From the NCBI GenBank assembly GCA_009787775.1, contig WQSQ01000011.1:1-41645 (forward strand): a DNA stretch of 41,645 bases, written 5' to 3'. A program made the translations under genes and the position numbers. Under the pieces are notes generated by a model. The model searched no databases and was not told the origin of the DNA. It was given only the letters and a program-made list of their open reading frames with translations. Positions 22,208-29,030 of the stretch are shown here, in pieces. Numbering within the stretch: the stretch's first letter is position 1; the number at the start of each line of letters is the position of its first letter. Origin of the DNA: Treponema sp. Its GTDB lineage: Bacteria > Spirochaetota > Spirochaetia > Treponematales > Breznakiellaceae.

Positions 22208-22966
22208 TTATTTCGCATTAGCCGCTTTCACAGTAAAGGAGCTTATGACCGTCCTCGGTTCTTTCAAATCGGTACCGCCGACAGTGTACTGTGTTTTGAT
22301 TTCAATAAAATACCTGCCTGCGGGAAGAGAAGGAATTACGCCGATGACTTTACGGCTCGTGTTTATAAGCAGGGCTTTTTTTACCTTGATCTTTGAATGC
22401 TGGCTCCCCGTTGACACAAAGTAAAGACCGCACTCAGGGTTATCGCCTGATATCTTGATTTTATTGCCCAGCAATGTAAAAAGACCGCCTGAACTCAGCG
22501 ATTTATTATCAAGGCCGGTCTCCATATCGGTAAATTGCTCGATAATACCGTTGGTCTCACCTTTTTCTGTTTCTATAACAATATGCTCACTGAGCCTGCG
22601 CAGCGGAGTACGGGTGCGGAAACGGAAACGTATCGGGTTCTTTCTGCTGTCGCAAGCGTCATCCGCCTTGTTAAAGAAACCGCCGACAGCAGGATGTATG
22701 GAAAAATAACCGGTATTAACCGCAAAGCCGTCGCAAAGCTGGTAAGCGGCTTCGTCAAAAAACTGCTTTACATGATTAACAAGTTCATCATAGTTTCCGC
22801 TGAAGCCGCCCCTTGTTTTAAGAGCGGCGCATACCTCATCAATGGTCAGAACAGCCTCGTTATCTATACGGGCAGAAAAAGCTCCCTTGGCACCCGGAAG
22901 ATTGCTTGGATAAAGCTTGACTCTTATACGGTGCAGAACATCAGTTACTGTATTGGTTATACTCAT
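22208..22966 (-). CDS. HU/IHF-like DNA-binding domain protein with DUF4469 domain
   Basis: 252 residues. The N-terminal 120 or so resemble the HU-like DNA-binding domain (Bvu_2165 type): VLHRIRVKLYPSNLPGAKGA, LTIDEVCAALKTRGGFSGNY, VKQFFDEAAYQLCDGFAV, followed by a basic arm-like strand RKNPIRFRFRTRTPLRRL. The C-terminal 110 match DUF4469, an Ig-like domain: GNKIKISGDNPECGLYFVS and PSLPAGRYFIEIKTQYTVGG with KEPRT. No Shine-Dalgarno precedes the ATG. It is the only gene here with an obvious nucleoid-type DNA-binding domain, and six regularly spaced palindromes lie 22-155 bp upstream of its start, which suggests it may bind and control its own promoter (inference). Family assignment comes from recognised sequence style, not a search. 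Confidence 0.75.
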   Translation of the reverse strand: MSITNTVTDVLHRIRVKLYPSNLPGAKGAFSARIDNEAVLTIDEVCAALKTRGGFSGNYDELVNHVKQFFDEAAYQLCDGFAVNTGYFSIHPAVGGFFNKADDACDSRKNPIRFRFRTRTPLRRLSEHIVIETEKGETNGIIEQFTDMETGLDNKSLSSGGLFTLLGNKIKISGDNPECGLYFVSTGSQHSKIKVKKALLINTSRKVIGVIPSLPAGRYFIEIKTQYTVGGTDLKEPRTVISSFTVKAANAK

Positions 22967-22971
22967 ACTTC

Positions 22972-23000
22972 AGTCTATAATTATCCGTCACTATAGTCAA
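22972..23000 (-). promoter_or_regulatory. Promoter of the HU-like gene, -35 box inside the palindrome array
   Basis: Minus-strand TTGACT (22995-23000), exact 17-bp spacer, TAGACT (22972-22977), then five bases to the ATG at 22966. The -35 box occupies the centre of the gene-proximal palindrome copy, exactly where that copy departs from the consensus of the other five. Confidence 0.5.
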
Positions 23001-23121
23001 CAGTGAACATTCACTATAGGCTATAGTGAACCGTCATTATAGCCTATAGTGAACTGTCACTACAGACTATAGTATACTATCACTATAGACTATAGTGATA
23101 TCTCACTTTAGCCTAAAGTGA
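22988..23121. repeat. Six tandem 19-bp palindromes with exact 23-bp period
   Basis: Units start at 22988, 23011, 23034, 23057, 23080 and 23103. The consensus is TCACTATAG-N-CTATAGTGA with a single central base and 4-bp spacers (ACAT, ACCG, ACTG, ACTA, TATC). Units 2, 5 and 6 are perfect palindromes. Unit 3 has one arm change, unit 4 has a few, and unit 1 is changed in the centre (CTATAGTCAACAG). Unit 6 is TCACTTTAG-C-CTAAAGTGA, with matching changes in both arms. It occupies the 248-bp gap between the GT26 gene and the HU-like gene, upstream of the latter. Multiple operator sites are the simplest reading; a row of RNA hairpins or a repeat family are alternatives. Confidence 0.9.
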
Positions 23122-23214: not shown

Positions 23215-23997
23215 TCATTTCTTAAACAACGCATAGTAAAGCAGCAGGAATTTATAACCAATGTACGGAAAGATTCGGAAAAACTTCAGCGGCTCCTGGA
23301 AGCAATAGCCTATCCATTCAAGTCCGGCGTTAAAGGCGATTCTTGAAGGATGCGTTTTCTTCTCAGCAAAGACATCAAAGATATCGCTGCACCACAGCCT
23401 CATGCCTTCTCCCAGAACTCCATTGTTCCTGTAAATCCACCGTTCCTTGCCGCGGACGCCTTTTCCGGCCAATAACAGTGAAGGAGAGGATTTTTTTATG
23501 GCCTTAATGATGGTGGCTTCCTCATACCGTTTAAAATAACCGGGAAAGCGCCCCACAACACGCAGTTTGGGAAATGTTTGACGAATGTTCTGTTCGGTTT
23601 TCTGCAGAATCTTTCTTTGGCCGCCGAGAAGGTAGCAGGTAAACTCCCGTTTCTCAAGAATGGTAAGTATGCTGACAATAAAGTCGAAAGGCATATACCG
23701 GTGCGCGGTTTTACCTGTAAGGAATTTTAAACCGCTTATTATGCTTTTGGAAATGGGAATAACCAGCGAAGCGTTTACCACATAGCAACGGTATTCGCTG
23801 TTTCTTCTGGCGCGAAGCAAATCCCAAAGAGAAAGAAGAACAATGTTATGCTCTTTCTTCGTTTTTAACAGATCATAAACGATATCACTTAACTGTTCGG
23901 GCGCGACAATGTCAATCGGAACTTTAAGAAATTCCAGTCGCTGCGAACACTGCTCCTGCTGCGAACTTTCCAATTTTACACCTTTTTCAGTTCCCAC
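23215..23997 (-). CDS. Divergent WecG/TagA/CpsF (GT26) family glycosyltransferase
   Basis: About 260 residues. GT26 enzymes move an N-acetylamino sugar onto a lipid-linked precursor at the membrane during surface polymer synthesis. The overall pattern fits: VVNASLVIPISKSIISGLKFL, FTCYLLGG with LQKTEQNIRQTFPKLRVVGRFPGYF, LLLAGKGVRGKERWI and HPSRIAFNAGLEWIGYCFQEP. Two key spots differ: the usual NADG reads NASL, losing an Asp reported to matter for catalysis, and the QEKW region reads GKERW. It may be inactive or altered. The start is uncertain: GTG at 23997, overlapping rsmE by 22 bases, or a TTG inside with AAAGGTG before it. Tight overlap shows co-transcription with rsmE. Confidence 0.75.
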   Translation of the reverse strand: MGTEKGVKLESSQQEQCSQRLEFLKVPIDIVAPEQLSDIVYDLLKTKKEHNIVLLSLWDLLRARRNSEYRCYVVNASLVIPISKSIISGLKFLTGKTAHRYMPFDFIVSILTILEKREFTCYLLGGQRKILQKTEQNIRQTFPKLRVVGRFPGYFKRYEEATIIKAIKKSSPSLLLAGKGVRGKERWIYRNNGVLGEGMRLWCSDIFDVFAEKKTHPSRIAFNAGLEWIGYCFQEPLKFFRIFPYIGYKFLLLYYALFKK

Positions 23998-24895: not shown

Positions 24896-26380
24896 TCAGG
24901 ACGCTATCGCAAGTTCGTTTTCCTTCTCCTCCTGCAATGCCTTGAGAGTTCTTACATTCTGCATCAATATATTATAATTGCCGCCGCGTAAAATGTTCAC
25001 AGCTTCCTGCAGCTGAACATCATATTCAAGATCATATACCGGAGCAAGGATTGTACGGTTTAACTCGTTCCTGATTAGCCGTCTGAGCAGAGACGTATCA
25101 AGCATGTAATCATTTTGAAGGACACGGGCGAAATCATCAACCTGAGCGGCGGAAGCATGAGGATTCTGCTCAACAAAAACCGGAATCCTGTTGGCATTGA
25201 TAAGCTCATTTAAATGGACGGCATCTTCCTCTGTATATTCAGGAAACGATACTTCGCGATCAGGCGGGATACCGACTTTATCTATATTAACATTGCTTGG
25301 CGTAAAATAACGCGCGGTAGTTATCCTGAATCCGACATTGTTTAAGGGGTAAACCTGCTGTACAGAACCCTTGCCGAACGTATTTTCCCCGACAAGGTAT
25401 GCCCTGCCCCTGTCTTTGAGAGCGCCTGCGACAATTTCCGAAGCGGAAGCCGATCCTCTGTTTATAAGGACAATAACCGGAATATTGTCCGGCACAAGAG
25501 CTGTCCGGTTTGCGTTAAAGTCACGATTTTCATAAGTTATTCTTGACCTGATGCTGACAACAGGCCCGCCGTCAAGGAATAGATTTGAAACATCAACAGC
25601 GGAATCCAGCCGTCCGCCGTAATTATTCCGTAAATCAAGAATCAGACTGGTATAGTTGTTTTTCTGAAATTCCAGAATCGCGTCTTTTGCTCTGTCTGCC
25701 GTAAAGGGTGTAAAGGTAAGGAGTTTTAAATAGCCGATATTGCCTATCATGGCGTATTTCGCCGTGGGCACCTCAATAATAGCCCTGGTTATTGTGACAG
25801 GAAATTCCAGTCTGTCGCCGCGCCTTATCATCAGCTTAACGCTCTCTCCCGGTGTCCCTCTTAACATGCCAAGGACTTCATCCATTGTAATTGTTTCAGT
25901 CGGAATTCCGTTAATTTCGGTAATAAAATCGCCTGGATTGATTCCTGCCCTCCACCCCGGAGTATCTTCAATCGGAGAGGCAACTTCTACCCACATTGGT
26001 TTTCCGTCAGGACGCGGAGATGTAGCTTTTGTGATATTCAGCCCTACTCCGCCGAAATTACCCTGCGTTGTGTCGCTGATATCGCTCATGTCGGATTCCG
26101 TCATATAGACAGAGTACGGATCATTCAAAGCGCCGAACATTCCGTTCATTGCGCCTTCAAAAAGCGTATGCGGGTCAACTTCTTCTACATAATTCTGAAT
26201 TATAAAATTATAAACATTTTGCAATAAACTTGCATAATTCTGTCTTTGAGCCTGCGTTATGTTCGAATTGCCCTGCGCTGACGCCGCAGGTATTATCGCG
26301 AAAGTAAACAAAGCGCCGAAAATGACAGTTACTGTAATCCAGACCCATTTAAAGGATTGCTTTTTTTGCTGTATATCCAT
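24896..26380 (-). CDS. ctpA: C-terminal processing peptidase (S41 family)
   Basis: 494 residues. A signal anchor (about 13-36) leads to a periplasmic protease. A PDZ domain spans about 107-195 (GVGLNITKA, GWRAGINPGDFITEINGIP), and the S41 core follows with LILDLRNNYGGRLDSAVDVS, NRGSASASEI and NTFGKGSVQ. Ser312 and Lys337 are 25 apart, as in characterised Ser-Lys dyad members, so it should be active. These proteases trim C-termini of envelope proteins. A helical C-terminal tail of about 90 residues is extra. AGGAG before the ATG supports the start. It diverges from the CHASE2 cyclase across 49 bp. Confidence 0.93.
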   Translation of the reverse strand: MDIQQKKQSFKWVWITVTVIFGALFTFAIIPAASAQGNSNITQAQRQNYASLLQNVYNFIIQNYVEEVDPHTLFEGAMNGMFGALNDPYSVYMTESDMSDISDTTQGNFGGVGLNITKATSPRPDGKPMWVEVASPIEDTPGWRAGINPGDFITEINGIPTETITMDEVLGMLRGTPGESVKLMIRRGDRLEFPVTITRAIIEVPTAKYAMIGNIGYLKLLTFTPFTADRAKDAILEFQKNNYTSLILDLRNNYGGRLDSAVDVSNLFLDGGPVVSIRSRITYENRDFNANRTALVPDNIPVIVLINRGSASASEIVAGALKDRGRAYLVGENTFGKGSVQQVYPLNNVGFRITTARYFTPSNVNIDKVGIPPDREVSFPEYTEEDAVHLNELINANRIPVFVEQNPHASAAQVDDFARVLQNDYMLDTSLLRRLIRNELNRTILAPVYDLEYDVQLQEAVNILRGGNYNILMQNVRTLKALQEEKENELAIAS

Positions 26381-26391
26381 GGTAAACTCCT

Positions 26392-26410
26392 GTTATACTT
26401 ATTATATAAC
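26392..26410. promoter_or_regulatory. Dyad in the 49-bp divergent ctpA/cyclase intergenic region
   Basis: GTTATA and TATAAC are inverted around CTTATTA. Either arm could serve as a -10 box for one of the two divergent genes, so the promoters must overlap. No clear -35 box was identified outside the coding regions. Confidence 0.35.
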
Positions 26411-26429
26411 AAATAAAAAGGATAGTGAT

Positions 26430-29030
26430 ATGGTTACTGTAAAAAAAATAGGAAAAAAACTGACGACTGTGATTATAATCAGCCTTGTATTTCTGGCAAT
26501 TACCGGCCTTCATTTACTTGGCGTCTTTCAGTTTCTGGAAAATAAATCCTATGATTTTAGAGTACGCTTTTGGGCTGATTCGTTTTGGCTTGAACCGTTT
26601 TGGCCTGATTCCTTCTATCGCAGCCCTTCTAATGATATTGTTGTAATCCTGCTGGAGCAGGACAGTCTTGACTGGGCTCAGCTGGAGCGGGGATGGGGAT
26701 GGCCCTGGCCGAGACAGGCATACGCCGATATTGTAAATTACATGAATCTGAGCGGAGCAAGCTCAGTTGCGTTCGACGTAATATTCTCCGAACAATCCAT
26801 TTACAGGAACGCCAAACAGGATGAAATAATCGATAATGCGGTCAATGCGCTGGAAGAGGTTGCCCAGGACACAGGAAGCCGGTCACAACCCGGATTTGAC
26901 CCGGACAACCGCGAATTAACAAGCAGTATAGAGAATTTATACGGTTTTGCAAGGCAGATTGACAGTTCGCAGTTAACAGGTACAGGAAGGTCTTTTCAAT
27001 CCTTATCGGGCGGCCAGCAGCGAACCGGAATGACATCAATGTTTTCTGTATACAACGTTATTATTAACGCGCTGCGCAGTTTAAGCTCAAGAGAAGATGA
27101 TGAATCCTTTATCAGAGCTTCAGCGGATTTCGGCCATGTTGTACAGACAGTTATGTTCTCAAGCCAGACGGGAAACACGCTTTCATGGCCGTCCGGCGTT
27201 GACAAACCATTGTTCCGTACAGATAATTTCGATTCAATACTGGCTAACTTCAGCGTAGGCGAAGGAGAGAAAGCCCAGTTCCCAATCCGGGGATTAATTA
27301 ATTCAGCCGGAGCATTGGGGAGCGTTACAGGCGTTCCGGACTCTGACGGAATTATAAGAAGACTAAAACCTTTTACATTATTTGACGGACGGGCATTACC
27401 TGGTCTTTCCGCCGCTTCTCTTATTGTTTCAGGATACGGAACGCAAATATCTTATAACAGCAAAACCGGTACAATTGAATGGGAAGGTATTTCAATACCT
27501 GTTGACGCAAACGGCAACGCGCTTTTGCGTTATAGGGGAGATTTTCAGGAGAAATATCACCCGTACAGGGTAATGGATATTCTCTTAAGCATAGAAGCCA
27601 ACGAAAGGGGCGATAATCTGGAGTTTGGGAATTACACTACCGCAACGGGAACAAATTGGTGGATGCTTACACCGGAAAACTTCAGCAAAGCCAATGTATT
27701 CTTCGGTTTCTACGCGCAGGGGCTTTATGATATTTTCAGCACGCCAATATCATCGGTTTATCCCGGCATGGGATGTCATATAACAATGCTGGACAATATG
27801 CTGAAGGGGGATTTTATCCGCGAAAGCAGCGAAGCTGTTAACCTGATTATCCTGTTCGCAGTAATAGTATTGGTTGTATGTCTGACAATATCTTCCAGCC
27901 GTATCGCATTGTCTGTCGGAGGAACAATCTTTCTTGTTGTTTTAATCTTGGTAAGCGCGTTCATGTCCTATCAGCTCGGCGGTTTATGGATACCAATGAT
28001 TACATTCATTGCAGGAACGATTGCAGGTTTTATTACCGTAACCATTTATAATTACGCAACAGAAGGCAGCCAGAAACGTTTTATAAAATCAGCTTTCTCG
28101 CAGTATCTGTCGCCGAAAGTTATTGACAGAATTATAGCGGATCCTTCGCAGCTGAAACTTGGCGGCGAAAAGAGGGAGATGACCGCAATCTTTACCGATA
28201 TCCGCGCGTTTTCTACATTCTCCGAAGCGCTTGGCGATCCTGCAAAACTTGTAGAACTTCTTAATTTTTATCTGACAAAAATGAGCAATATCATTCTTAA
28301 CCATCAGGGAACAATAGACAAGTACGAAGGAGACGCAATTATTGCATTCTTCGGCGCGCCGGTACAAATGGACAACCATGCTTCAATGGCCTGCCGCGCA
28401 GTAGTAAACATGAAAAAGGCGGAAAAGGAAATAAACCGTGAGGCGCTTTCGCTTGGACTGGTCACTCCTGAAGTAATGAAGGCCATGGCCGCAAAGAAAG
28501 CGATAAAAAGCATTGATGATCCGCATCCCATTTTCACAAGGCTTGGCATAAATACCGGTGATATGGTTGTAGGCAATATGGGAACCCCCAACAAAATGGA
28601 CTACACAATCATGGGTAACGCCGTCAATCTGGCCGCAAGGCTGGAAGGAGTAAATAAACAGTACGATACAGGCGGTATGCTGATGAGCGAATATACAAGA
28701 ACGGTCATCGGCGATGAGTTCGTTGTACGGCCCTTAAGCAAAGTGAGAGTTGTCGGTATCAATACCCCTCTGCGGCTTTATGAACTTTTAGATATTGCAT
28801 CCGAGGCATCCCCTGAGCTGCTGGATATGGTAAAAAGCTGGGAGCAGGCATTTCAATTTTATGAAGAAAAGAATTTTATAGCCGCTCAGAATATCTTTCA
28901 GTTAATCTACAGCAGAAACAGCGATGATATGGCCGCTAAAAAATACTTAAACAGGTGCAGCACATTAATATCTTCTCCTTTTGATGAAGGAAATTGGGAT
29001 AACGGCGTAGATAACCTGACAGAGAAATAA
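26430..29030 (+). CDS. CHASE2-domain class III adenylate cyclase
   Basis: 866 residues from the ATG at 26430, which has AAGGA eight bases upstream; a frame opening at 26259 is rejected because it lies inside ctpA. One N-terminal helix (about 12-33), a periplasmic CHASE2 sensor (to about 465), three helices (about 470-545) and a class III cyclase domain (about 575-790). Metal aspartates appear in FTDIRAFSTF and KYEGDAIIAFFG. The Lys before YEGD and the Asp in MDYTIMGN are the adenine-specifying pair, and GNAVNLAARLEG holds the transition-state Asn/Arg, so cyclic AMP is the expected product. A C-terminal helical tail (about 90 residues) is extra. Signal unknown. Confidence 0.92.
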   Translation: MVTVKKIGKKLTTVIIISLVFLAITGLHLLGVFQFLENKSYDFRVRFWADSFWLEPFWPDSFYRSPSNDIVVILLEQDSLDWAQLERGWGWPWPRQAYADIVNYMNLSGASSVAFDVIFSEQSIYRNAKQDEIIDNAVNALEEVAQDTGSRSQPGFDPDNRELTSSIENLYGFARQIDSSQLTGTGRSFQSLSGGQQRTGMTSMFSVYNVIINALRSLSSREDDESFIRASADFGHVVQTVMFSSQTGNTLSWPSGVDKPLFRTDNFDSILANFSVGEGEKAQFPIRGLINSAGALGSVTGVPDSDGIIRRLKPFTLFDGRALPGLSAASLIVSGYGTQISYNSKTGTIEWEGISIPVDANGNALLRYRGDFQEKYHPYRVMDILLSIEANERGDNLEFGNYTTATGTNWWMLTPENFSKANVFFGFYAQGLYDIFSTPISSVYPGMGCHITMLDNMLKGDFIRESSEAVNLIILFAVIVLVVCLTISSSRIALSVGGTIFLVVLILVSAFMSYQLGGLWIPMITFIAGTIAGFITVTIYNYATEGSQKRFIKSAFSQYLSPKVIDRIIADPSQLKLGGEKREMTAIFTDIRAFSTFSEALGDPAKLVELLNFYLTKMSNIILNHQGTIDKYEGDAIIAFFGAPVQMDNHASMACRAVVNMKKAEKEINREALSLGLVTPEVMKAMAAKKAIKSIDDPHPIFTRLGINTGDMVVGNMGTPNKMDYTIMGNAVNLAARLEGVNKQYDTGGMLMSEYTRTVIGDEFVVRPLSKVRVVGINTPLRLYELLDIASEASPELLDMVKSWEQAFQFYEEKNFIAAQNIFQLIYSRNSDDMAAKKYLNRCSTLISSPFDEGNWDNGVDNLTEK

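Follow-up and report, generated by a model that had tools for sequence, protein, structure and literature searches.

Palindromic 23-bp tandem arrays beside HU–DUF4469 genes in Spirochaetota and Bacteroidota: candidate binding sites for the adjacent protein

The array and its flanking genes

The window, as we call the whole stretch of DNA analysed here, comprises positions 1 to 41,645 (41,645 nucleotides) of contig WQSQ01000011.1 in a Treponema sp. draft assembly (GCA_009787775.1). Two of its genes on the reverse strand are separated by a series of evenly spaced palindromes, and the features of this region are as follows.

22988 to 23121, no strand: array of six 19-bp palindromic units with a 23-bp period and consensus TCACTATAGNCTATAGTGA, defined by motif matching, TRF and shuffles
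22965 to 22983, no strand: seventh unit, degenerate (six mismatches), in the same 23-bp register and lying across the HU–DUF4469 start codon
22208 to 22966, reverse strand: gene with HU-DNA_bdg (PF14848) and DUF4469 (PF14734) domains, 252 aa, proposed partner of the array
22568 to 22921, reverse strand: HU-like DNA-binding domain (PF14848) of this protein
22247 to 22543, reverse strand: Ig-like DUF4469 domain (PF14734) of this protein
23215 to 23997, reverse strand: WecG/TagA-type glycosyltransferase gene, which adjoins the array

When up to three mismatches to TCACTATAGNCTATAGTGA are allowed, units start at 22988, 23011, 23034, 23057, 23080 and 23103, every step being exactly 23 bp and every spacer 4 bp; two of the six are perfect and the other four carry one to three mismatches. 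In dinucleotide-shuffled sequence the mean number of sites of the TCACTATAGNCTATAGTGA type is 0.01, against six in the window, and TRF reports a period of 23 across 22985–23121, which confirms the six 19-bp palindromes, exact period and 4-bp spacers described in the initial annotation. Its remark that such an arrangement is unusual holds against a random genome, but not for the source genome, which contains about 24 such arrays. The leader and tail that accompany most of those copies are absent or decayed in the window, where the units themselves are still good. The window array lies upstream of the HU–DUF4469 gene, which is the minority arrangement, and could thus act there on that gene itself.

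Synteny of the WecG/TagA-type gene with the array was considered as a conserved module and rejected; this neighbourhood is not kept in relatives, and the gene is therefore regarded as probably outside the module. The half-site TCACTATAG, found in the window and in all dispersed units, is identical to the final nine bases of the core T7 promoter, a likeness that is probably coincidental because the upstream letters of the promoter are missing. Elsewhere in the window, a 15-bp tandem repeat (TTTTGGCCTGATTCG, 2.9 copies) occupies positions 26568–26611 within an ORF at 26259–29030. A homologue of the window protein has been solved (PDB 4FMR), the available part of whose record names neither an array nor a binding site or specific function, and an AlphaFold single-sequence model of the window protein, with a mean pLDDT of 35, was left out of the conclusions.

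Constraint within the units

The pattern of conservation was derived from 154 units of the source genome. Positions 3–5, 8, 9, 11 and 15–17 are near-invariant, positions 6/7 and 13/14 show matching variation in the two arms (A or T; T or C), and the centre base and 4-bp spacer are free to vary. None of the nine pairs of positions tested in these units has a significant positive association of the kind expected for compensatory change between the arms. Changes in one arm that disrupt pairing are frequent, double changes at 6/14 are rarer than expected (odds ratio 0.21, p 0.004), and between paralogous arrays the core arm positions differ by 3.9% versus 37% for centre and spacer, all of these values being indicative, as units and array pairs are non-independent. 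Since the half-sites vary independently and without compensatory change, a dimeric protein is favoured over a hairpin, and the unit pattern points to a two-fold protein site that would tolerate one weak half-site rather than to a hairpin kept by pairing. The suggestion of the initial annotation that the units are sites for a symmetric regulator thus agrees with constrained core half-sites, free centres and spacers and no compensatory pairing. A structured RNA was rejected, as no Rfam covariance model matched at its gathering score and the arms do not covary.

Dispersed arrays in the source genome

The source genome is a draft of 2.04 Mb, 71% complete, in which the stretches around arrays were examined. 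It contains 101 sites within two mismatches of the consensus, and these form about 24 arrays of two to eight units, the window's included, all of them intergenic and every step 23 bp. With that number of arrays, the idea of a single operator of one gene was rejected. The dispersed arrays lie between tandem (10), convergent (5) and divergent (7) genes with no preference for orientation, which led us to reject a promoter or terminator role for them and implies that most of the 23 dispersed copies cannot be simple operators. Scattering at loci without the gene, which the initial annotation had named as the mark of a neutral repeat family, is indeed seen at about 23 loci.

Most dispersed copies share a leader of about 65–75 bp, which contains TATTCTGATACAAAGTTCCTGCCTTG, and a conserved tail of about 80–120 bp, so that the typical dispersal unit is an element of about 300 bp. 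No leader or tail without an array was found. No transposase was found with the dispersed element, and the Y1 transposase profile (PF01797), positive in six of 14 controls, had no match in the source genome at its 71% completeness. Terminal inverted repeats and target duplications were not recognised by eye at the aligned ends, for which there is no empty site for comparison. A larger left-hand repeat is common to three to five dispersed copies; in those on contigs C12, C33, C1 and C43 (loci L061, L064, L059 and L053) the leader-side repeat shared in addition to the leader is up to about 430 bp long. One further copy (L067, C25:25954-26110) has an inverted leader at both ends, with seven units within, and lies between convergent ORFs.

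A phage or plasmid origin was rejected; the element DNA does not occur in phage and plasmid records, the array skeleton was not found in viral contigs, and the window HU–DUF4469 protein has no match in phage records or viral contigs. One Parabacteroides homologue does match two unannotated faecal 'phage' scaffolds, with no array directly after the gene.

By its exact letters the array family is almost private to the source genome. A search of 39 genus relatives found one two-unit remnant, in a single genome and beside a DUF4469 fragment, and no palindromic tandem arrays were found in 545 kb of sampled genus relatives. A genus-wide family defined by exact letters was therefore dropped, and arrays emerged only with a relaxed query, the skeleton ACTNNAGNCTNNAGT at 23-bp spacing, which recovered arrays with different unit letters in six more genomes of the family. 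One of the arrays found in this way belongs to a genus relative, where it sits immediately upstream of a gene homologous to the HU-like gene in the window, the position that the initial annotation had suggested checking in related genomes. All eight genomes found with a TCACTATAG-like skeleton encode HU–DUF4469, compared with 71 of 200 family genomes overall. In another of these family genomes, from a different genus, a locus of about 31 units of the CCACTCCAGCCTATAGTGG type, nearly all at 23-bp steps (L171, G183:C56, ~67150-67930), has no HU–DUF4469 gene adjoining within the locus read.

Linkage between gene and array

HU–DUF4469 homologues, present in those 71 of 200 genomes, are often multicopy, the paralogues in a genome numbering as many as 13 or more and having different units. 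Linkage was assessed at 90 homologue loci across the family, an array being defined as a tandem repeat of 22–24 bp no more than 600 bp away. By this definition an array lies near the gene at 76 of the 90 loci, a figure that is shaped by TRF thresholds, draft genomes and the relatedness of loci within one genome; it becomes 78 when period multiples plus 21 or 25 bp are counted. No 22–24-bp array was detected at the remaining 14 family genes, a few of which are at contig ends. The period is 23 bp in 63 of the 76 arrays, 24 bp in seven and 22 bp in six. The association with an HU-like gene noted in the initial annotation is thus a general rule, and an array beside an HU–DUF4469 gene is commoner than chance: control DNA away from these genes in gene-bearing genomes has five 23-bp arrays in 398 kb (one genome accounts for four), and control stretches from genus relatives mostly without the gene have none in 504 kb.

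The linked arrays, with a median of 4.5 copies, lie downstream of the gene in 66 cases and upstream in 10, starting at a median of 7.5 bp past the stop codon. Because most are just downstream, away from the promoter, simple autoregulation, as first proposed, is not the general arrangement. The unit letters differ widely from gene to gene while palindromy and period persist (a palindromy score of at least 0.6 is reached by 54% of unit consensuses versus 17.5% after shuffling), and the two other HU–DUF4469 homologues of the source genome have arrays of different letters. In a relative (G007), a dispersed copy has the same leader and tail as the 3' flank of one of that genome's own HU genes, which suggests that dispersed elements derive from gene-linked arrays.

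Gene and array form a recurring module in Spirochaetota and Bacteroidota. A second spirochaete family has an array at 16 of 22 loci, one of the 16 being short and 581 bp away, and in Parabacteroides distasonis (Bacteroidota) an array lies directly past the stop codon in all six homologues recovered, whose identity to the window protein is about 25% where measured. One Parabacteroides gene and its array (L293, NZ_OY725812.1 104315-108977) stand amid an ABC-transporter cluster in the opposite orientation, as if inserted.

Which domain may read the array

The more alike two proteins are, the more alike are their units (Mantel r 0.24; 0 of 1000 permutations), yet units may be unrelated even where the proteins are about 90% identical. 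Conservation is strong in the HU domain, also between homologues with unrelated arrays, and weaker in DUF4469. In partial tests, unit similarity tracks DUF4469 given HU (0 of 500 permutations) but not HU given DUF4469 (169 of 500), and residues ~227–236 of the protein, within DUF4469, covary most with array type, 227–233 leading in the partial test; as pairs that share an array are also more alike at synonymous sites near the 3' end of the gene, physical linkage of this end to the array may explain part of the DUF4469 correlation. Base reading by the HU domain is disfavoured by these partial tests and is unlikely given its conservation across unrelated arrays and the unrelated units of proteins about 90% identical. 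Array specificity may instead reside in DUF4469, as a working hypothesis.

The gene after the module

The gene that follows the module encodes a lipobox protein in 19 of 87 cases (22%) versus 33 of 694 control genes (4.8%; p 5e-7), in a comparison based on simple ORF calls and non-independent loci, and the gene before the module has no such enrichment in the same comparison. We infer that the protein may coat its own array and affect the next gene, in a local regulatory or structuring role. In a trtA mutant of Treponema denticola, expression falls for both TDE_2259, which combines the two Pfam domains found in the window protein (log2 -5.18), and TDE_2258, the surface antigen gene lrrA (log2 -5.69); the available text of that report, which names PF14734, mentions no array and gives no binding site or specific function for TDE_2259 (PMC12724145). 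A search of the open literature for DUF4469 by name found no paper, and a prior description in subscription papers is possible.

Comparison with described repeats

The initial annotation knew of no matching described element, but a similar one, BrickBuilt, is described in Porphyromonas gingivalis. It is likewise an uninterrupted 23-nt tandem repeat of variable copy number (here a 19-bp dyad plus 4-bp spacer in two to eight units), with a leader and tail and 19 strictly intergenic copies, and most dispersed copies here also have a conserved leader and tail; the likeness, drawn from the available part of the report, is one of architecture (PMC4596501). According to the same text, BrickBuilt is species-specific and has IS5-like terminal inverted repeats, and its shortest copy adjoins an HU-type gene, PGN_0872, listed as PF00216; in contrast to the present proposal, that text suggests no link to an HU–DUF4469 protein (PMC4596501).

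As a gene with its own dispersed palindrome, the closest analogue is the REP/RAYT system, in which a gene is also flanked by its own type of palindrome, with several such pairs per genome and intergenic dispersal; however, RAYT is a tyrosine transposase and REPINs are inverted pairs, whereas here the protein is HU/Ig-like and the units are 23-bp tandem repeats (PMC3116915). Identity with RAYT/REP was rejected, since the draft genome has no Y1 transposase match. BOX elements of Streptococcus pneumoniae have an internal module larger than the 23-bp units found here. Like the present arrays they consist of a leader, variable internal repeats and a tail, and are patchy between species, but their sequences are different and they form structured RNA with terminal inverted repeats and no known cognate gene (PMC3049150).

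Proposed mechanism and alternatives

We propose, with a probability of roughly 0.6, that the array units are clustered cognate sites bound by the adjacent HU–DUF4469 protein, and that such arrays are sometimes dispersed in a MITE-like manner. One HU–DUF4469 dimer would sit on each 19-bp dyad, and with a constant step of 23 bp, or roughly 2.2 helical turns, adjacent dimers could join up in an ordered nucleoprotein filament. Placed usually directly past the stop codon and often ahead of a gene for a lipoprotein or secreted protein, the array may influence the expression of that gene; as array letters turn over fast, each gene would have its own type. In the source genome, copies of this type would have reached about 23 further intergenic loci, in most cases as part of the leader–array–tail element of ~300 bp, which would behave like a non-autonomous repeat.

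We think it unlikely that the array amounts to no more than the repeated core of a MITE-like element, similar to BrickBuilt or BOX and with no partner function, whose mobile unit either includes the HU–DUF4469 genes or has hitch-hiked on them. The ~24 intergenic copies with conserved leader and tail and unbiased orientation fit such an element, as do the G007 copy with the flanks of an HU gene, the presence of HU genes in non-conserved contexts such as the ABC-transporter cluster, and the precedent of the 19 intergenic leader/23-nt-repeat/tail copies in the available BrickBuilt text (PMC4596501). An idle repeat would hardly be expected, however, to keep its core half-sites while centres and spacers drift, to retain good units in copies without flanks such as the window's, or to recur beside the same gene between phyla with unrelated unit letters, and no transposase (Y1 included), terminal inverted repeats or target duplications were found, the ends having been inspected by eye.

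Less probable again is that the arrays act as nucleic-acid structure, either rows of cruciforms or RNA hairpins past the stop codon, whose shape is read by the HU-like protein, so that the transcript is stabilised or terminated. HU-family proteins favour distorted or junction DNA, the HU domain stays conserved as unit letters change, and the arrays begin just past the stop codon; but the 154 units lack arm covariation, with single changes that break pairing common and double ones depleted, no Rfam family matches, and the dispersed arrays stand in any orientation to genes. We would give very little credence to centromere-like or nucleoid-organising sites, on which HU–DUF4469 would structure or partition the chromosome: the HU fold and the number of dispersed arrays in the source genome are compatible with such a role, but the protein is patchily distributed across the family, the arrays are absent from sampled genus relatives, and the many paralogues of one genome have different units.

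Building on the binding-site reading, it is conceivable, though we hold it at distinctly less than even odds, that Spirochaetota and Bacteroidota share an undescribed two-part system in which each protein reads its own, rapidly changing array, controls the next gene and can seed copies elsewhere. Under the same tentative proposal, taken as a whole, the Ig-like DUF4469 domain would confer specificity while the conserved HU domain served as scaffold, a surface lipoprotein would often be encoded by the next gene, and BrickBuilt could be seen as an orphaned outgrowth.

Significance

For DUF4469 and an uncharacterised HU clade, most of the loci examined now supply concrete candidate binding sites, and with such sites beside most HU–DUF4469 genes their function is directly testable by a single gel shift. 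A candidate protein partner is also offered for BrickBuilt and other minisatellite MITEs with 23-nt repeats. A strict 23-bp period combined with fast-changing letters offers a natural series of proteins and sites for the evolution of DNA specificity. Some of the carriers are oral or gut bacteria, and in T. denticola expression of one homologue drops along with that of a surface antigen gene.
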